From the NCBI RefSeq assembly GCF_009909205.1, contig NZ_JAAAPN010000009.1, positions 62,001 to 126,000 on the forward strand: 64,000 bases of DNA. The letters are read 5' to 3'. The translations under genes were made by a program, and so were the position numbers. Below the pieces are notes generated by a model. That model had not been told where the DNA came from, did no database searches, and worked only from the letters and a program-made list of their open reading frames with translations. Of this stretch, positions 42,046 through 51,616 are shown piece by piece. The stretch comes from Aquabacterium fontiphilum (GTDB taxonomy: Bacteria > Pseudomonadota > Gammaproteobacteria > Burkholderiales > Burkholderiaceae_C). The first letter of the stretch is position 1. The number at the start of each line of letters is the position of its first letter.

Positions 42046-44796
42046 TCAACGCTCCTGTTTGCGCACGAGGGAACGGGCCAGGGCGACGTACAGCACACCA
42101 AAGCCCATCAGCACGGCACTGGCCTGCCACAGCGCGGGCCACGACAGCGGCCAGCCCTTGGTGATCGTGCCCAGGCTGATCTGCTGGAACCACGAGGCGG
42201 GAAACAGCTGTGCCAGCACCCAGTTCACCCCTTCCAGCGTCGAGGTAGGGCTGAGCAGCCCCGCGAAGCTGGTGGTGATGATCACGCAGACGATGGCCGT
42301 GAGGAACTGCGCCGCCACCTGGGTCTGCACGAAGGACGACACCAGCATGCCCATGCCCGTGATGGCCACCGCATAGGCCAGGGCGCCCATGGCCAGACCG
42401 AGCACGCTGCCTTGCACCCACACACCGAACACCCCGCCCAGGATGAGCAGCAGAGTGACAAAGCTCATGAAGGTCAGCGCGATGTAGGGCAGCTGCTTGC
42501 CCACCAGGAACTCGCTGATGGCCCCCGGCGCCGAGTACAGGTTGGTGATGGTGCCCATCTCTTTCTCGCGCACCACGCCCAGCGCTGTCAGCATGGCGGG
42601 CACCAGCGTCATGGCCAGCATCAGCACGCCGGGGGCGAAGGTGTGGATGCTGCGGTAGTCCTGGTTGAACGACAGGCGGGGCTCGGTGCGCACCGGCAGC
42701 GCCGGGATCTCGGCCCCCGGGATGGCCTTGACATAGGCCAGCGCATGGGCGAGCGCCACGGCGCGGGCGCTGTTGGCGATGTGGTTGGCGCGTACCAGAT
42801 CGGCCCCGTCGACATAGAAGGCCACCTCGGGTTGCCGCATGCCGACCAGATCCCGCCCAAAGCCCGGCGGAATGTCGATGACCAGCCAGGTGTGGCCGCT
42901 TTTCAAGGTGGGGTCGATCTCGTCGGCGCTGTGCAGCGGGGCCTGCCGATCGAAGTACGTCGAGCCATCGAAGTGGGCGATCAGGCCTCGGCTTTCGCTG
43001 CTCTGGTCGCGATCCAGCACCGTGTAGGCAATGCGGTCCACATCGAAGCTGAGGCCCCAGGTGCCGGCGCACAGCAGGATCAGCGGCCCCAGAAACGCAA
43101 AGGTCAGGCGGATGGTGTCGTGGCGCAGCTCCATGGCCTCGCGCCGCGCGAAGGCCCACATCCGGGCCCACCAGGCCGCCAGCCCGTTGGGACCGATGGC
43201 ATCGGCCGCATCCGGCAACGGCCCCGCCGCTGGTGCGTCCAGCGGGTCGTGGGTGCTGTCCGGCTTGGGGACATGGGTCAGCGCGGCATCGGCCTCCAGG
43301 TAGTCGATGAAGGCCTGCTCGAGCGTTTCACAGCCCTGCTGCTCGCACAGCGCCTGGGGCGCCCCCACGGCGAGCACACGGCCGTGGTGCATCAGCGAGA
43401 TGCGGTCGCAGCGCTGCGCCTCGTTCATGAAGTGGGTCGACACGAACAGTGTGACGCCCTCCTTGCGCGACAGCCGGATCAGGTGGCGCCAGAACATGTC
43501 GCGCGCAGCCGGGTCCACGCCCGAGGTGGGCTCGTCCAGAATCAGCACGGCGGGCTTGTGCAGGCAGGCCGCGGCCAGTTGCAGGCCCTGACGTATGCCC
43601 AGCGACAGATCGGCCGGCGCCTTGTCGGCATGGCGGGTCAGCTCGAACACCTCGAGCGCGCGGGCGATGTCGGCATCGGCCGTGCGCGGGTCCATACGGT
43701 ACAGCCGGGCATGCAGCACCAGGTTCTGGCGCACCGACAGCTCTTCATACAGCGAGAAGGCCTGCGACATGTAGCCGATGTTGAGCCGGTTCGCCAGGTC
43801 ACCCGCATTGACCGGCCGCCCCAGCAGGCTGGCCTGCCCTTCGGTGATGTCCAGCAGGCCGGTGAGCATCTTCATCGTCGTGGTCTTGCCGCAGCCGTTG
43901 GAGCCCAGGAAGCCGAAGATCTCGCCCTGCTCGATGCGGAAGTTCACGTCCTGCACTGCCGTGAAGTCGCCGAAACGGCGCGTCAGGCCCGTGGCCTCCA
44001 TCGCGGGGGGGCCGTCCCGCCGGGGCAAAGGTGGGATGACGAGCGGCTCGCCATCACCCTGACCTGCCAGCTTCACATAGGCGTCTTCCAGCGTGGCCGC
44101 GCCGGTCTGCATCATCACCTCGACGGTGGGCGCATTGACCAGCACCTTGCCATCGGCCATGGCAATCAGGTGCTCGAAACGCTCGGCCTCTTCCATGTAG
44201 GCCGTGGCCACCAGCACGGTCATGTGCGGGCGCTGCATGCGCAGCCCCTCGACCAGCGCCCAGAACTGCCGGCGCGACAGCGGGTCCACCCCGGTCGTGG
44301 GTTCGTCGAGGATGAGCAGATCGGGGTTGTGCACCAGGGCGCTGCACAGCGCGACCTTCTGCTTCATGCCGCCCGACAGCTTGCCGGCCGGCCGGTCGGG
44401 AAACGGATCGAGCCCGGTGGCCACGAGCAGGCTGCAGATGCGGGCATCGCGCTCGGCCTCGGCCACGCCGAACAAGCGAGCCGCAAAGTCGATGTTGTCG
44501 TACACCGACAGCGAGCGGTACAGGGCGCGGCCCAGGCCCTGGGGCATGAAGGCCACACGTGGCAAAAGTGCCTGGCGCGCCTCGGCCTGTGCCATGTCGG
44601 TCCCGAGCACGGTGACACGGCCCGTCTGGATGCGCTTGACACCGGCAATCAGGGCCAGCAAGGTCGATTTGCCCACACCGTCCGGGCCCACCAGCCCGAT
44701 GGTGCGGCCCTGCGGCAAAGCCAGGCTGACCTCGTCCAGCGCCCGCACCGCGCCGTAGCGGTGGCTCACTGCGTCGATCTGCACCGCGTACGGCAT
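42046..44796 (-). CDS. rbbA: ABC ATPase-permease fusion RbbA/YhiH
   Basis: A 916-residue protein with two nucleotide-binding domains and a C-terminal ABC-2 membrane domain. Domain 1 has Walker A GPDGVGKST and signature KLSGGMKQKVAL. Domain 2 has Walker A GSNGCGKTT but a degenerate signature (LSLGIRQGLQLA). The membrane part starts near residue 565. E. coli RbbA was described as a ribosome-associated ATPase, but the operon context with a fusion protein and an outer-membrane channel points to a tripartite exporter. The substrate is unknown. Confidence 0.9.
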   Translation of the reverse strand: MPYAVQIDAVSHRYGAVRALDEVSLALPQGRTIGLVGPDGVGKSTLLALIAGVKRIQTGRVTVLGTDMAQAEARQALLPRVAFMPQGLGRALYRSLSVYDNIDFAARLFGVAEAERDARICSLLVATGLDPFPDRPAGKLSGGMKQKVALCSALVHNPDLLILDEPTTGVDPLSRRQFWALVEGLRMQRPHMTVLVATAYMEEAERFEHLIAMADGKVLVNAPTVEVMMQTGAATLEDAYVKLAGQGDGEPLVIPPLPRRDGPPAMEATGLTRRFGDFTAVQDVNFRIEQGEIFGFLGSNGCGKTTTMKMLTGLLDITEGQASLLGRPVNAGDLANRLNIGYMSQAFSLYEELSVRQNLVLHARLYRMDPRTADADIARALEVFELTRHADKAPADLSLGIRQGLQLAAACLHKPAVLILDEPTSGVDPAARDMFWRHLIRLSRKEGVTLFVSTHFMNEAQRCDRISLMHHGRVLAVGAPQALCEQQGCETLEQAFIDYLEADAALTHVPKPDSTHDPLDAPAAGPLPDAADAIGPNGLAAWWARMWAFARREAMELRHDTIRLTFAFLGPLILLCAGTWGLSFDVDRIAYTVLDRDQSSESRGLIAHFDGSTYFDRQAPLHSADEIDPTLKSGHTWLVIDIPPGFGRDLVGMRQPEVAFYVDGADLVRANHIANSARAVALAHALAYVKAIPGAEIPALPVRTEPRLSFNQDYRSIHTFAPGVLMLAMTLVPAMLTALGVVREKEMGTITNLYSAPGAISEFLVGKQLPYIALTFMSFVTLLLILGGVFGVWVQGSVLGLAMGALAYAVAITGMGMLVSSFVQTQVAAQFLTAIVCVIITTSFAGLLSPTSTLEGVNWVLAQLFPASWFQQISLGTITKGWPLSWPALWQASAVLMGFGVLYVALARSLVRKQER

Positions 44797-44808
44797 GGGG
44801 CGCTCCGC

Positions 44809-45849
44809 TTACTTGAGCGCGAAGAAGGCGTCGCGACCGGTGGACCAGCTCGACTGCGACGCCGGCGCGCCCTGGGTCGACGCGCCACCGGTGCGCAGCA
44901 TGCCGATCCCGGTCAGTCCGCCCTTGAGCAGCGCCGCGTGCTGCAACGCCACCTCTTCCGGCAGGGCGAGCTTGACGCGGTAGCTGAGCTTGTCGCGCTC
45001 TTTCTGGGTTTCGACGTGCTTGGGTGTGAACTGCGCGTCCGAGGCCACGAACGCCACGCGTGCTGGCAGCGGCAGATCGGGCACGGCATCGAGCACGATG
45101 CGCGCCTCGTCACCGATGCGCAACTGGCCCGCCACCGCAGACGGCACGAAAATGGTCATGTGAACCTGGGTGACGTCCAGCAGCGTCGCGATGCGGCCGC
45201 CTGCAGGAATGACCGAACTGGGCTCCACCACCCGGTGCTCGATGCGCCCATCCATGGGGGCGCGCAGCGTGTGGTCGGCGATCGCCTGGTTCAGGCGCAG
45301 GATGCCGGCTTCGGCCTCCTCCTTGGCGGCGCGCGCTTCACCGACGGCCGAGGTGGCGATCGAGATGCCGGCCCGCTCGCCGTCGCGCTGCGCCTGGCGC
45401 TTTTGCAGCTCGGACGTCGAGATCAGCCCCTCTGCGTGCATGCCCTGGGCGTTGTCCAAATCCAGCTGGGCCACACGGGCCTTGATGGACTGCACCTGCA
45501 CCTCGCCTTGTGCGCGCCCCATGGCCTGCATCGCACGCTGACGCATGGCCTGCACGCCCGCGAGCTGCCCCTCCAGATCGGTGGTATCCATGCGGGCAAT
45601 CACGTCGCCCGCCTTGATGCTCTGGCCCTCGTGCACCTCGACGGTCACCACCTTGCCAGGGAACTTGGTGGCGATCTCGACGCGCTGCACTTCCAGCCGG
45701 CCATTGGCCTTGAACACCTGGTGCGTCGAGCTACCACTGCCGAGCACCGCCCACGTGCCCCAAGCCGCGGACACGGCCAGCGCCGACACGCCCGCCCCCA
45801 GAATGAATCCCTTGTAGCGGCCCAGCATGGCGGTCAGCGGCTTCATCAT
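44809..45849 (-). CDS. HlyD-family periplasmic adaptor of the RbbA exporter
   Basis: A 346-residue membrane fusion protein. One N-terminal membrane anchor (about residues 12-33) is followed by a biotinyl-lipoyl half-motif (KFPGKVVTVEVHEGQSIKAGDVIARMD), a coiled-coil hairpin rich in Ala/Gln/Glu, the second lipoyl half and a beta-barrel. The start MMKP at 45849 has AAGGAG seven bases upstream. It is the first gene of the exporter operon and is preceded by a candidate Fnr box. Confidence 0.9.
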   Translation of the reverse strand: MMKPLTAMLGRYKGFILGAGVSALAVSAAWGTWAVLGSGSSTHQVFKANGRLEVQRVEIATKFPGKVVTVEVHEGQSIKAGDVIARMDTTDLEGQLAGVQAMRQRAMQAMGRAQGEVQVQSIKARVAQLDLDNAQGMHAEGLISTSELQKRQAQRDGERAGISIATSAVGEARAAKEEAEAGILRLNQAIADHTLRAPMDGRIEHRVVEPSSVIPAGGRIATLLDVTQVHMTIFVPSAVAGQLRIGDEARIVLDAVPDLPLPARVAFVASDAQFTPKHVETQKERDKLSYRVKLALPEEVALQHAALLKGGLTGIGMLRTGGASTQGAPASQSSWSTGRDAFFALK

Positions 45850-45940
45850 GGCGTTCTCCTTGTCGGTGGCCACGCAGCGTTTTGTGCGTGGTCCGTGTTT
45901 CAGGCATGAACGCATTGTTGGCGGGCCGATCGATCTGACT

Positions 45941-45954
45941 TTGCGCGTCATCAA
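45941..45954 (-). promoter_or_regulatory. Candidate Fnr/Dnr box of the exporter operon
   Basis: TTGCGCGTCATCAA matches eight of the ten fixed positions of TTGAT-N4-ATCAA with the correct spacing. It lies about 92 bases before the HlyD-family start, which is suitable for activation of that operon. Orientation cannot be fixed because the motif is palindromic. The Dnr-type protein in this window has the matching recognition residues. Confidence 0.5.
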
Positions 45955-46168: not shown

Positions 46169-46933
46169 CTAACGCACCATCAGATCCAGTCCTGTGCGCC
46201 GCAAACGGTCCACGAGCTCATCCGGTGGCGTTCGCACCCCCGTGCCCAGACTCGCTTCCGTCGAGGGGGTGGCGCGGTAAGACTGCAGCACCCAGCGCCG
46301 TGCACCCGCAGCCTTGAGTCGCCGCGCCAGTCGCATCAGCATGGTGTCGCTGATCAGGTCGGGATGCCAGGTCGTGCGCAGCTCGTGCGGCTTGCCGCTG
46401 GCCAGCACCAGATCCAGACAGGCCCGTACAGGGTCGCCGCTGCGCGGCACGGCCGTGATGGCCTTGTAGTCATCGAAGTCGGTCTTGACATCCAGCGCGA
46501 CCCAGTCGACGAGCGGCAGGCATTCAGCCAGCCGCTCGGGATAAAGGCCCGCGGTGTGCAAACCCACCTCAAAGCCCATCACCCTGACCTGCCGGATGGC
46601 CGGAATGAGGGCGCGGTCCAGCGTCGGCTCTCCTCCGGAGAACACCACCCCGTCGAGCAAGCCCTGCCGCGCCTGCAGCGTCTCAAGGACGCGCGCCCAC
46701 CCGTGTGCGGGATGCGCGCATCGGGGCTGCAAGCCGGGGTTGTGGCAATAGTGGCATCGCCATGGGCAGCCCTGCACGAACACGACGGCGGCCAGACGGT
46801 CTGGCCAGTCCACCGTACTCATCGGCACGAAGCCCCCCACGTCCAATGCGTCCGCGGGGGCGGGCGGCATCGCGTCAGCCGGGGCAACAGTCTGCGGTGG
46901 CGCGTTCTGGCTCAATGAAATAGCGTCGCTCAT
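46169..46933 (-). CDS. nrdG: Anaerobic ribonucleotide reductase activase NrdG
   Basis: A 254-residue radical-SAM activase. The cluster motif is CPWRCHYC (Cx3Cx2C), followed by the SAM-binding segment VVFSGGEPTLD. It generates the glycyl radical on the reductase. I start at the ATG at 46933, with GAAGGG upstream. An in-frame start at 46957 adds eight residues. The start lies inside the preceding small glycyl-radical gene (59-base overlap), so the two are tightly coupled. The N-terminal 30 residues before the core are Ala/Pro-rich. Confidence 0.9.
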   Translation of the reverse strand: MSDAISLSQNAPPQTVAPADAMPPAPADALDVGGFVPMSTVDWPDRLAAVVFVQGCPWRCHYCHNPGLQPRCAHPAHGWARVLETLQARQGLLDGVVFSGGEPTLDRALIPAIRQVRVMGFEVGLHTAGLYPERLAECLPLVDWVALDVKTDFDDYKAITAVPRSGDPVRACLDLVLASGKPHELRTTWHPDLISDTMLMRLARRLKAAGARRWVLQSYRATPSTEASLGTGVRTPPDELVDRLRRTGLDLMVR

Positions 46934-47075
46934 GGAACTCGCCCTTCTTGCCGACATTGAACGATGCCACCGGGCGGTGATAGCCCATGACCCGGGTCCA
47001 GATCTCGCAGCGCTGGCGCTCGTCTTCGGCCAGCACGGGATGGGGCGCGTCGGGTGTGTGGTTCAGGTGCGTCAT
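46875..47075 (-). CDS. Separately encoded glycyl-radical domain of the class III reductase
   Basis: A 66-residue protein carrying the motif CEIWTRVMGYHRPVASFNVG, which in NrdD proteins is the C-terminal radical loop. Gly31 would carry the radical. It is in a different frame from the nrdD body, whose stop lies ten bases upstream. AAGGAGG lies five bases before the ATG, which is a near-ideal ribosome-binding site. I read it as a real small subunit, comparable in principle to the stand-alone glycyl-radical protein YfiD/GrcA. A frameshift in a formerly single gene is the alternative. Its 3' end overlaps nrdG. Confidence 0.82.
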   Translation of the reverse strand: MTHLNHTPDAPHPVLAEDERQRCEIWTRVMGYHRPVASFNVGKKGEFHERRYFIEPERATADCCPG

Positions 47076-47085
47076 ATTGCCTCCT

Positions 47086-49146
47086 TCAGGCGGGGTTGGG
47101 AAGAGGGGTTCGCGGCTGCGCTGGCGCCGCACGGCGGGCCAGCGCTTCTTCGTCGCAGCGCGGACAGAACGCGTGCTCGCCGGCCAGGTAGCCGTGCGTC
47201 GGGCAGATCGAGAACGTCGGCGTGACGGTGATGTAAGGCAGGCGGAACCGACCCAGCGCGCGTCGGACCAGGTTCTTGCACGCCTGGATCGACGACACCC
47301 GCTCACCCAGGTACAGGTGCAGCACCGTGCCGCCGGTGTACTTCATCTGCAGCGGCTCCTGACGGGCCAGTGCGTCGAACGGGTCGTCGCAGAAACCGGC
47401 CGGCAGCTGCGACGAGTTGGTGTAGTACGGCTCGTGGTCGGTCCCTGCCTGCAAGATGCCGGGAAAGCGGGCCCGGTCTTCCTTGGCAAAGCGATAGGTC
47501 GTGCCTTCGGCCGGGGTCGCCTCGAGGTTGTACAGGTGGCCCGTACGCTCCTGCATCTCGGTGATGCGCGCGCGGATGTGGTCCAGATAGCGCAGGGCGA
47601 AGGCCACGCCCCACGGGGTGGTGATGTCTTCCAGATCATCGGTGAAGTTGCGGATCATCTCGTTGATGCCGTTCACGCCAATGGTCGAGAAGTGGTTGCG
47701 CAACGTACCCAGGTAGCGCTTGGTGTACGGAAACAGGCCGGCATCCATGTGGCCCTGGATCACCTTGCGCTTGATCTCCAGGCTCTGGCAGGCCAGGTTC
47801 ATCAGGTGATCGGTTCGCGCCAGCAAGGCGGCCTCGTCGCCCGCATGCAGGTACCCCAGGCGCGCGCAGTTCAGCGTCACCACGCCCAGCGAGCCCGTCT
47901 GCTCGGCCGAGCCGAACAGACCGTTGCCCCGCTTGAGCAGCTCGCGCAGATCCAGCTGCAAACGGCAGCACATCGAGCGGATCATGTGCGGCTGCAGCTC
48001 CGAGTTCACGAAGTTCTGGAAGTAAGGCAGGCCGTACTTGGCCGTCATCTCGAACAGGGCATCGGTGTTGGGATGATCCCAGTCGAAGTCCTTCGTGATG
48101 TTGTAGGTCGGAATGGGGAAGGTGAACGCCCGGCCCTTGGCATCGCCCGTCATCATCACGTCGATGTAGGCGCGGTTGATCATGTCCATCTCGGCCTGCA
48201 GGTCGCCGTAGGCAAACGGCTGCTCGACACCCCCGATCACGGGCACCTGCTCGCGCAGGTCTTCCGGGCAGACCCAGTCAAAGGTCAGGTTGGTGAACGG
48301 CGTCTGCGTGCCCCAGCGCGAAGGCACGTTGAGGTTGTAAATCAGCTCCTGCAAGCACTGGCGCACCTGCTCGTAGCTCAGTCCATCCTTGCGGATGTAA
48401 GGCGCCAGGTAGGTGTCGAACGAGCTGAACGCCTGTGCCCCGGCCCACTCGTTCTGCAGCGTGCCCAGAAAGTTGACGATCTGCCCGACAGCCGATGACA
48501 GGTGCTTGGGCGGGCCGGCCTCGACCTTGCCAGGCACGCCGTTGAGGCCCTCATGCAGCAGCGTGCGCAGCGACCAGCCAGCGCAGTAACCCGACAGCAT
48601 GTCGAGGTCGTGGATGTGCACGTCGGCCTCGCGGTGGGCCACGCCGACCTCGGGCGGGTACACATGGCTAAGCCAGTAGTTGGCGATCACCTTGCCCGAG
48701 ACATTCAGGATCAGGCCGCCCAGCGAGTAACCCTGGTTGGCGTTGGCATGGATGCGCCAGTCCTGGCGGTGCAGGTACTCGTTGACCGAGCGTTCCACAT
48801 CGACGGCGGTGCGCCGGTCCTCGCGCAAGGCGCGGTGCTGCTCACGGTAGACGATGTACGCCCGTGCCGCCGGCGTGTGGCCGGCGTCCAGCAGGACCTG
48901 CTCGACCACATCCTGGATCTGCTCGACCGTCGGCACGCGCTGTGCCAGGCGGGCCTGCGCCACCTCGGCCAGCTGCTGCGCCTCGTCGGTACCGAAGGTG
49001 GTGGTGGCCTCGCCCGCCGCCTGGATGGCGCGCACGATGCGGTCGATGCGGTAGGGTTCGGCACGGCCGTCGCGTTTGATCACGGCCACCGGCGCGGTTG
49101 CCTCGGCTCCTGGGTTCGGGATGCTTTGCTCAGCAGGTTGATTCAT
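47086..49146 (-). CDS. nrdD: Class III ribonucleoside-triphosphate reductase, body lacking the glycyl-radical domain
   Basis: A 686-residue anaerobic reductase. An ATP-cone regulatory domain covers about residues 20-110 (VIKRDGRAEPYRIDRIVRAI), followed by the ten-stranded barrel with LSGYCAGWSLRTLL and TTYRFAKEDRARFPGI. The zinc-type segment CPTHGYLAGEHAFCPRC is near the end. The frame then stops after a Pro/Arg-rich tail, without the RVxGY radical motif, which is encoded by the next small ORF. I start at the ATG at 49146. An Fnr-type box lies 78 bases upstream. Confidence 0.92.
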   Translation of the reverse strand: MNQPAEQSIPNPGAEATAPVAVIKRDGRAEPYRIDRIVRAIQAAGEATTTFGTDEAQQLAEVAQARLAQRVPTVEQIQDVVEQVLLDAGHTPAARAYIVYREQHRALREDRRTAVDVERSVNEYLHRQDWRIHANANQGYSLGGLILNVSGKVIANYWLSHVYPPEVGVAHREADVHIHDLDMLSGYCAGWSLRTLLHEGLNGVPGKVEAGPPKHLSSAVGQIVNFLGTLQNEWAGAQAFSSFDTYLAPYIRKDGLSYEQVRQCLQELIYNLNVPSRWGTQTPFTNLTFDWVCPEDLREQVPVIGGVEQPFAYGDLQAEMDMINRAYIDVMMTGDAKGRAFTFPIPTYNITKDFDWDHPNTDALFEMTAKYGLPYFQNFVNSELQPHMIRSMCCRLQLDLRELLKRGNGLFGSAEQTGSLGVVTLNCARLGYLHAGDEAALLARTDHLMNLACQSLEIKRKVIQGHMDAGLFPYTKRYLGTLRNHFSTIGVNGINEMIRNFTDDLEDITTPWGVAFALRYLDHIRARITEMQERTGHLYNLEATPAEGTTYRFAKEDRARFPGILQAGTDHEPYYTNSSQLPAGFCDDPFDALARQEPLQMKYTGGTVLHLYLGERVSSIQACKNLVRRALGRFRLPYITVTPTFSICPTHGYLAGEHAFCPRCDEEALARRAAPAQPRTPLPNPA

Positions 49147-49256: not shown

Positions 49257-50810
49257 TCACTTGAGCCCCAACCTGTGCGCCAGCTTGTGCAGGTTGCTCG
49301 GGTCGACCCCCAGCCGGCGTGCCGCCACGGCCCAGTTGCCCTCGCTGGCCCGCAAACAGCGCTCGATGATGTGGCGCTGCACCTGATCCACCTGCTCGCG
49401 GAGCGTGCCCGCACCGATCGGCTCGCCCCCCGCATCCGGCTGCACGGCATCCGCGCGACGATCTTGGCCGCGGGGAACGTCGCCGGGCAACGCGCTCAGG
49501 TCCATCAGCTCCGCAGACAGCGTGGCGATGTCGGCGCGGCTCACGCCCCGACTGAGCAGCTTGAGGGCCGCCCGGCCGATGACATGCTCCAGCTCACGCA
49601 CATTGCCCGGCCACGCGTATCGCAGCAAGGCGGCCTCCCCGCCCGCGTCCAGCCTCAGGCTGCGCAAGCCCAGGCGGGCCCGGTTCACCTCCAGAAAGTG
49701 ACCGGCCAGCAACAGCACGTCGTCGCCACGGTCGCGCAGCGGCGGCACCTCGACCGGGTAGACCGACAGCCGGTGATACAGGTCGGCACGGAAGGTGCCC
49801 GTTGCGACCGCGTCGCGCAGCCCGCGGTTGGTCGCGGCCACCACGCGCACATCGACCTTGATGGGCTTGTCCGCCCCCAGCCGCTGCACCTCGCCGTTCT
49901 GCAGGGTGCGCAACAGCTTGGCCTGAATGCTCAAGGGCAGCTCGCCCACCTCGTCCAGAAACACGGTGCCACCACGGGCGGCCTCGATGCGCCCGGGCCG
50001 GTCGGAGGTCGCCCCCGAAAACGCGCCGCGCACGTGGCCGAACAGCTCACTCTCGGCGAGCGACTCGGGCAAGGCCGCGCAGTTGACATGCACCATCGGC
50101 CCCTTGGCGCGCGCCGAACGTTCATGAACACGGCGCGCAAACAGGTCCTTGCCCACCCCTGTTTCGCCCGTGAGCAGCACAGGCAGATCCGACTGGGCGA
50201 CCACATCGATCTCGTGCAGCACGCGCTGCATGGCGGGGCTGCGACCGATCAGCGTCGGCCCTTGTGCCGCCACGCCGGGGGCGTCGTCGCGCGGCATGGC
50301 GTGCGCGCGCTGCAACGCCTGCACCTCCTGCTCGAGCAGGCCCATGCGCACGGCGGCCGCCACCAGCGGCTGACACTGCTGCAACGCCTGTCGCGCCGCC
50401 GCGTCGAAACGCCCGGGTGTGAGCGCGTCCAGCGTCAACACGCCCCAGCACCGCCCGTCGACCACCACCGGCGCCCCCATGCAGTCGTGTACAGGCAACG
50501 GCGCGCCCACCATCGCGTCCACCAGCCCGTCGTAGGGGTCGGGCAAAGTGCTGCCCGGCTCGAAATGCACCACCTCACGGCTCAACAGGATGGTGGAGAG
50601 CCGCGGGTGTTGCCCCACCACAAACGCCCTGCCGAGTGCATCTCGCGCAAGACCCTCGGCGGCCACAGCGCGCAGGGTTTCACCATCGTGCTGCAGCAGC
50701 GCCACCGCATCGCAGGCAAATGCCAGCTTCAGCTGGCTCACCAGCCGCTGCAGGCGGACGGCGCGCGGCAGGCTGACCGTGAGATCGGTCAGCAGCATGC
50801 GGTCAATCAT
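49257..50810 (-). CDS. norR: NO-responsive sigma-54 activator NorR
   Basis: A 517-residue enhancer-binding protein with an N-terminal GAF domain, a central AAA+ domain (Walker A GETGVGKD) and a C-terminal Fis-type helix-turn-helix. The residues that coordinate the NO-sensing iron in E. coli NorR are conserved (Arg70, Asp94, Cys110, Asp128 by alignment). The sigma-54 contact loop reads GAFSGA instead of GAFTGA. The start may be 50810 (MIDRMLL) or 50828 (six residues more), and both have plausible upstream sequences. It is divergent from norA. Confidence 0.93.
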
Positions 50811-50823
50811 GGTTTTTTCTACC
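50811..50823. promoter_or_regulatory. NorR box 1 (GGT-N7-ACC)
   Basis: GGT-TTTTTCT-ACC fits the GGT-N7-ACC element described for Ralstonia eutropha NorR. It is the outermost of three boxes and abuts or overlaps the norR start codon, so binding could also repress norR. Confidence 0.6.
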
Positions 50824-50830
50824 CTCATGA

Positions 50831-50962: not shown

Positions 50963-51616
50963 ATGAACTACGCTGACGAATCCCTGGGCCTGCTTGCCCG
51001 CACCATCCCTGGCGCCACCCGCGTGTTCCACGCCCACCATCTCGACTTCTGCTGCGGCGGCAAGCAGACGCTGCGCACGGCGGCCGACAAAGCCGGCCTT
51101 GACGCCACGGAGATCGCCGCCCAGCTCGATTCCCTGCAGGAAGGAAGCGACGAGGTGGTCGACTGGACCGAGGCCCGCACCCCCGATCTGGTGAACCACA
51201 TCCTGTCGCGCTACCACGCCCGCCACCGCGAACAGCTGCCCGAGCTGATCCGCCTGGCGCGCCGCGTCGAGGCCGTTCATGGCGATCGCCCTGAATGCCC
51301 ATTGGGCCTGGCCGATCACCTTGAGAACATGCAGCAAGAGCTCGAGAGCCACATGCAGAAGGAAGAGATGGTGTTGTTCCCGCTGTACCAGCGCGAGATG
51401 GCCCACCCCTCACTGCCCCCTGTGCAGATGATGCGCATGGAACACGACCACCATGGGGAGGAGCTGGCCAAGCTGGAGGCGCTGACCAACGGCATCACCC
51501 TGCCCCGCGGCGCATGCAACACCTGGCGCGCGCTGTACCTGGGCCTGCAAACACTCAAGGAGGACCTGATGGCCCACATCCACCTCGAGAACAACGTGTT
51601 GTTCGAGCGCGGCTGA
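50963..51616 (+). CDS. norA: Di-iron NO-response protein NorA (YtfE/ScdA/Ric)
   Basis: A 217-residue protein. An N-terminal ScdA-type domain with the Cys-Cys pair in DFCCGGKQTL (about residues 29-38) is followed by a hemerythrin-like di-iron domain with His/Glu ligands (for example LESHMQKEEMVLFPLYQ, MRMEHDHHGEE and HIHLENNVLF). Homologues repair iron-sulfur centres or bind NO. In Ralstonia eutropha the equivalent norA lies next to norR and is NorR-controlled. No norB follows here; a DGC-domain pseudogene converges instead. Confidence 0.92.
   Translation: MNYADESLGLLARTIPGATRVFHAHHLDFCCGGKQTLRTAADKAGLDATEIAAQLDSLQEGSDEVVDWTEARTPDLVNHILSRYHARHREQLPELIRLARRVEAVHGDRPECPLGLADHLENMQQELESHMQKEEMVLFPLYQREMAHPSLPPVQMMRMEHDHHGEELAKLEALTNGITLPRGACNTWRALYLGLQTLKEDLMAHIHLENNVLFERG

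Follow-up and report, generated by a model that had tools for sequence, protein, structure and literature searches.

In the published accounts drawn on here, a class III ribonucleotide reductase is described as a single catalytic chain whose C-terminus is the glycyl-radical domain. The stretch of DNA analysed here, 64,000 nucleotides from Aquabacterium fontiphilum (contig NZ_JAAAPN010000009.1, positions 62,001 to 126,000; hereafter the window), contains an nrdD locus whose radical loop lies in a small open reading frame (ORF) behind the main gene. We propose that this locus very probably encodes a two-subunit class III ribonucleotide reductase, composed of a large catalytic and allosteric body and an obligatory 66-residue radical-glycine subunit, followed by the activase NrdG2. 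With class III NrdD (TIGR02487; PRK08270.1/NF006126; PF13597) it has in common the ATP-cone, the barrel, the conserved cysteines, the zinc segment and the adjacent NrdG2. The C-terminal end of the class III profile, however, is here the small ORF, and the loop sits on a separate gene. Fused relatives of the same subfamily keep the order barrel, zinc segment, loop, usually with NrdG downstream, and differ in being a single chain.

YfiD/GrcA of pyruvate formate-lyase is likewise described as a free-standing glycyl-radical domain acting in trans, but it mends an enzyme that has its own loop, whereas the body here has none (PMC8683613). The only spare parts given there as validated are YfiD and Y06I, both for pyruvate formate-lyase, with the suggestion that there may be others (PMC8683613). 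A ribonucleotide reductase made from two genes is also described in Pseudomonas aeruginosa, as NrdJa/NrdJb, which differs in being a class II, B12-dependent enzyme in which a glycyl radical is absent (PMC4520616, PMC4860495). The NrdD of Thermotoga maritima shares the xCCR motif and, unlike the enzyme considered here, has its loop in the same chain (PMC4493059). In that account SCCR/MCCR marks the NrdDh subclass, MCCR being the variant given for group NrdDh4 (PMC4493059). MCCR is found at residues 392-395 of the window's body, a likeness to NrdDh by motif alone. Among the literature matches listed, with few subscription journals covered, no title or abstract opening describes a separate class III radical subunit. 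Judged by its sequences, the split class III NrdD appears to be a novel variant of NrdD, the two-gene form of which is already annotated in RefSeq.

A body without a loop and a small protein with one

On the minus strand of the window, the NrdD body is followed by a 10-base gap, the small ORF and then nrdG, which overlaps the end of the small ORF. The features are as follows.

47086..49146, minus strand: NrdD catalytic body, 686 residues, with ATP-cone, NRDD barrel, MCCR motif and zinc segment; glycyl-radical loop absent
48832..49083, minus strand: ATP-cone domain, body residues 22-105 (PF03477, E 1.4e-20)
47962..47973, minus strand: MCCR motif, body residues 392-395, candidate thiyl-radical site (sequence and alignment)
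47155..47205, minus strand: zinc-type segment CPTHGYLAGEHAFCPRC, body residues 648-664 (sequence and Cys conservation)
47080..47086, minus strand: AAGGAGG ribosome-binding site, overlapping the body stop codon (sequence)
46875..47075, minus strand: free-standing glycyl-radical subunit, 66 residues (NRDD profile match, selection and relatives)
46968..46997, minus strand: glycyl-radical loop TRVMGYHRPV (sequence and structure prediction)
46983-46985, minus strand: Gly31 codon of the small ORF, within TRVMGYHRPV
46169..46957, minus strand: NrdG2 activase, radical S-adenosylmethionine protein (TIGR02495, 189.5 bits, cut-off 131.15)

The body TGA and the ATG of the small ORF are separated by 10 bases (AGGAGGCAAT), and the two ORFs are in different frames. 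For NrdG2, an inner ATG at 46933 is also a possible start.

In the Pfam search, body residues 135-667 match positions 2-530 of the 562-position NRDD profile (E 1e-170), and the small ORF matches positions 531-562 (E 3.8e-7; 29.6 bits, cut-off 26.2). The body also scores 1121.6 bits for PRK08270.1 (cut-off 548; profile positions 4-656 of 684) and 440.3 bits for TIGR02487 (cut-off 326.35). It ends 22 residues past the last Cys of CPTHGYLAGEHAFCPRC, and the RVxGY loop, absent from its chain, is present in the separate 66-residue ORF, that is, in trans only. An earlier, sequence-only reading of the window had described this arrangement, namely a 686-residue body that stops shortly past the zinc segment without RVxGY and, ten bases on and in another frame, a 66-residue ORF with an AAGGAGG site and the loop TRVMGYHRPV around Gly31; the sequence agrees with it in every detail, as does the profile match of the body to positions 2-530.

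Across a 54-row alignment, C188 (the first conserved Cys) and both cysteines of MCCR, C393 and C394, are invariant, and one of the three would carry the thiyl radical. The same holds for C648, C661 and C664 of CPTHGYLAGEHAFCPRC, which we read as a zinc-type segment, a putative metal site, ahead of the radical-loop position. When the small ORF is compared with 14 relatives over 40 codons, the differences from the window sum to 77, 24 and 195 bases at codon positions 1, 2 and 3, a pattern from which we conclude that the small protein evolves under purifying selection. Since the body and the small ORF complement each other exactly along one profile and the small ORF is under such selection, the two-piece match to NRDD is evidently not due to chance.

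One might suppose that the small protein is a spare part of the YfiD/GrcA kind, mending an otherwise complete NrdD. Both are small and carry a glycyl-radical loop, and spare parts for other glycyl radical enzymes are suggested as possible (PMC8683613). Nevertheless, this is highly improbable, as the body itself lacks a loop and a search of the A. fontiphilum genome gave no NRDD match beyond the body and the small ORF. Moreover, PF13597 is the sole Pfam match of the small protein at a limit of E 10 (the HMMER filters drop most matches above about 0.1), and no glycine-radical Pfam domain other than NRDD is listed for it, unlike what defines YfiD/GrcA. A dedicated activase, as belongs to a class III reductase, adjoins in the form of NrdG2 (TIGR02495). 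With the loop missing from the body and no further NRDD match in the genome, the enzyme would depend on the small subunit from the beginning.

Split and fused relatives

Querying genome_contigs with the body gave 482 relatives, the best 80 of which have 72-90% identity; all 80 are split and none is fused (79 classified, plus L021, a duplicate of L002). The sequence-only reading had named a continuous NrdD in close relatives as the finding that would speak against it, and none occurs among these best 80 of 482 loci; the same stop, ribosome-binding site and small ORF, which it had named as supporting evidence if seen in related Burkholderiales, recur far beyond that group. A profile search with NF006126 (PRK08270.1) over 274 genomes of the window's class, which is independent of the small gene, brought 23 genomes above the cut-off, 20 of them split and 3 fused.

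From 248 loci, 20 were excluded before classification: nine duplicates (L021, L120, L121, L130, L132, L135, L143, L150 and L158), five in which the body or the C-terminal match is lacking (L102, L115, L145, L148 and L149), and six that failed the motif rule (L112 and L226, split; L169, fused; L229, unlinked; L146 and L147, single-chain forms of distant NrdD). The remaining 228 rows (200 split, 28 fused) hold two doubled loci (L004/L099, split; L114/L140, fused), which are kept in the row-based counts of start sites, NrdG and residue spacing. The distinct loci number 226, of which 199 are split and 27 fused. The Elusimicrobiota sample described below accounts for 59 and 18 of these, the remaining loci for 140 and 9. 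Fused relatives (27 of the 226) are seen only at 45-76% body identity. They include a plasmid locus of Acidiphilium cryptum (L118), another of Actinomyces oris (L151), L122, and, in the Elusimicrobiota sample, L159 and others.

Compared with the body frame, the small ORF is at 0 in 57 split loci, at +1 in 59 and at +2 in 83. The distance from the body stop to the chosen start ranges from overlaps up to 413 bases (-1291 in one case, an artefact of how the start was chosen), most small ORFs being close to the body. The start was taken by a fixed rule as an ATG, picked blind to the ribosome-binding site and present in 198 of the 200 split rows; upstream of it, 74% of these 198 rows match TAAGGAGGTGA over 5 bases or more, against 9% in shuffles. 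Downstream of the small gene, on the same strand, NrdG is encoded in 197 of the 200 split rows; of the 28 fused rows, 24 have NrdG downstream.

These observations bear on two ways of explaining the small ORF without a second subunit. The first, which the sequence-only reading had itself put forward, is that a recent frameshift or sequencing error broke one continuous nrdD; the differing frames and the gap of merely 10 bases are what such an event would leave. It is barely conceivable, given a split arrangement in 199 of 226 distinct loci, the ribosome-binding sites, the selection on the small frame and the unlinked genes of one genome (G859, below). A recent event is, in fact, excluded because frames and gaps vary and G859 has the genes on different contigs. 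The second is that programmed frameshifting or stop read-through fuses the two ORFs into one chain in vivo, with which the nearness of most small ORFs to the body would agree. We hold this to be most unlikely: the frame relation is not fixed, the stop-to-start distance runs from overlaps to hundreds of bases, the small ORF has its own start and ribosome-binding site, and in G859 the two pieces are on separate contigs. Taken together, the varied frames, the ribosome-binding sites, the codon bias and the linkage to NrdG make either a frameshift or a fixed programmed shift an improbable source of the arrangement. At the level of sequence, then, the comparison establishes the two-gene anatomy, its conservation, the purifying selection and the linkage to nrdG2.

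A second sample was drawn from the phylum of L066 (titled Elusimicrobia), in which 149 genomes were searched with NF006126 and 81 matched at E 1e-100 or better. All 81 loci could be classified, as 19 fused (18 together with L169), 61 in which a small ORF adjoins the body (59 together with L226 and L158, the latter a duplicate of L066), and one, from G859, in which the body lacks a small ORF behind it. Contig C25 of G859 carries the body, with folC as the next gene; the small gene, 74% identical to the query, is found on contig C50, flanked by a phosphotransferase system enzyme I gene on one side and by metE and nrdG2 on the other. We regard these unlinked genes as the strongest evidence that the small protein would act in trans. 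A binning error could not undo the separation, because each contig by itself shows it.

In the split loci of Elusimicrobiota, for example L177, the bodies end in a conserved tail (about 22 residues) and the small subunits begin with a conserved N-terminus (about 27 residues), both absent from fused relatives. It is possible that the tails and N-termini form a docking device.

A Cys five residues ahead of the RVxGY Arg is present in 200 of 200 split rows and missing in some fused relatives (L119, L122, L140, L154, L155 and L174). Zinc shared between the two chains through this Cys was considered and judged unlikely, because the body offers four candidate ligands (C, H, C, C) and the residue is lacking in several fused relatives.

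Matches to the small protein in the plasmid collection come to 28 records, fused ones included, among them C. necator H16 pHG1, C. metallidurans, Paracoccus, Bradyrhizobium and Sulfuricurvum. Among viral contigs, a scan by pattern found no body relatives, and phage records gave no match to the small protein, although phages do hold fused NrdD. One such form, on a phage contig from human faeces (L154:2483-4888, plus strand), is an 802-residue fused NrdD whose C-terminus runs into a glutaredoxin/thioredoxin-like stretch with CPNC; it may hint at a redoxin as reductant in this NrdD subfamily. In another genome, G713 (L149 and L144), a split-type body is interrupted in frame by about 310 residues, inserted between GTQ and TPFT; the insert begins with CVDAETECLT, ends with FVTGN and reads like an intein.

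The nrdDG genes of C. necator H16 pHG1 are reported to be essential for complete denitrification (PMC2864759). RefSeq annotates both pieces there as coding sequences (CDS), and two CDS likewise stand in the gene tables of Aquabacterium olei, Sulfuricurvum kujiense and Bradyrhizobium japonicum. The C. necator H16 body alone computes to 76.19 kDa, and Siedow, in 1999, reportedly gave 76.2 kDa for NrdD. In the four records examined, the body is called 'ribonucleoside triphosphate reductase' and the small CDS (about 60-66 residues) 'nrdD'; H16_RS32675, for instance, is a 66-residue subunit annotated 'nrdD, anaerobic ribonucleoside-triphosphate reductase'. The name on the small subunit can mislead gene counts, and work on the body alone in species with a split NrdD would miss the radical part.

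Predicted structure, phylogeny and possible mechanism

The window's body was joined to the small ORF as an artificial chain and modelled with AlphaFold2, from a 54-row alignment that included 12 natural fusions and 21 read-through translations. The model has a mean predicted local distance difference test score (pLDDT) of 86.0 and a predicted template-modelling score of 0.82, with pLDDT of 87-91 in the blocks of residues 701-740 and below 50 at the join (residues 685-696). By VIA-align 2 it aligns with P. copri NrdD (8p2s_B; Z 34.4, root-mean-square deviation 2.8, 555 aligned), T. maritima NrdD (4u3e_B; 32.3, 3.2, 545) and pyruvate formate-lyase (1mzo_A; 19.4, 3.6, 491), the aligned ranges extending into the small subunit. 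Counted back from the ends of these ranges, which are assumed gap-free there, model residue 721 (Gly31) corresponds to 734 of pyruvate formate-lyase (1mzo, 2pfl), 580 of T4 NrdD (1h7b, 1hk8) and 621 of T. maritima NrdD (4coi, 4coj; 622, one off, with 4u3e_B). The radical glycines are given as 734, 580 and 621, respectively, in these enzymes (PMC8683613, PMC2795772, PMC4493059). The small-subunit loop is thus predicted to thread into the body barrel like the C-terminal loop of an ordinary NrdD, and it is this prediction, made on an artificial chain, that suggests docking in trans. Because fused rows guided the model, it shows compatibility and not binding.

A tree of 58 representative bodies requires 5 switches between the fused and split states. 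The split rows from Elusimicrobiota and the remaining split rows form two parts of it, on branches with Shimodaira–Hasegawa-like approximate likelihood ratio test (SH-aLRT) support of 98 and 99, and fused rows are present in both. With four long rows removed, 54 representatives need 7 changes, and a single clade of all split rows is rejected (approximately unbiased test, p-AU 3.4e-6); therefore, splitting occurred more than once, or re-fusions followed. Gains and losses of splitting are indistinguishable here because both trees are 'quick', with SH-aLRT support only and an unknown root. The small-subunit N-termini also differ between the Elusimicrobiota and the other split group. Since fused loci sit inside or next to split parts of the tree, both states are reachable. 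Among the 25 fused relatives measured, 8, 9 or 16 residues separate the last zinc Cys from RVxGY, the value of 16 occurring in L118 and L151 and the others having 8 or 9. L118, L122 and L151 are fused and lie in or near the split part of the tree; together with the spacing in L118 and L151, this would fit re-fusion of split genes.

Several points weigh against a two-subunit enzyme. It is known here from sequences and a predicted structure only, and docking is partly built into that structure, because the chain was artificially joined and the alignment contained fused relatives; residues 401-420, after MCCR, are of low confidence (pLDDT blocks of 52 and 63). Part of the 226 loci came from searches with the small protein, which are biased toward split forms, and even so 27 are fused, some within or beside split parts of the tree (L118, L111 and L172). 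The genome with unlinked genes, G859, is a draft assembly of many contigs. Finally, paired amphipathic helices were tried as the means of docking in Elusimicrobiota and rejected, the helical moment being not above that of shuffles (p<0.05 in 5 tails and in no N-terminus, out of 49 each).

If the two-subunit reading is correct, known NrdD chemistry suggests the following course. NrdG2, with S-adenosylmethionine, would activate the small subunit by making the radical on Gly31; the small subunit would dock on the body; the radical would pass from Gly31 to a Cys of MCCR; and the thiyl so formed would start the reduction of ribonucleoside triphosphates. More speculatively, the separate subunit may serve as a cheap replaceable part after oxygen damage. 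It is tempting to go further, though we do so tentatively and think it somewhat doubtful, and to propose that the built-in loop was given up on more than one occasion, both in Proteobacteria with their relatives and in Elusimicrobiota, the oxygen-labile radical carrier now being a small exchangeable subunit activated by NrdG, so that oxygen would cost a 7 kDa part and not the 76 kDa enzyme. NrdG would then activate the small subunit either as it docks or already beforehand. If a natural enzyme carries its radical glycine on a small protein apart from the main chain, the radical part could be installed, removed, labelled or swapped separately, and how the activase reaches a buried glycine could be tested directly.

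Neighbouring genes

Next to nrdD in the window, 49257-50828 (minus strand) encodes a GAF/sigma-54 activator, which we read as NorR-like, and 50963-51616 (plus strand) encodes a ScdA_N/hemerythrin protein resembling RIC/YtfE. On C. necator pHG1, genes for a nitric-oxide reductase, an Rrf2 regulator and a hemerythrin protein are likewise found close to nrdDG. Because of the NorR-like and hemerythrin neighbours here and the similar ones on pHG1, the split NrdD may be part of a denitrification or nitric-oxide regulon. Downstream of nrdG, 42046-45954 (minus strand) encodes an exporter of the ABC-2 type, which has two ATPase domains, and a HlyD-type partner.

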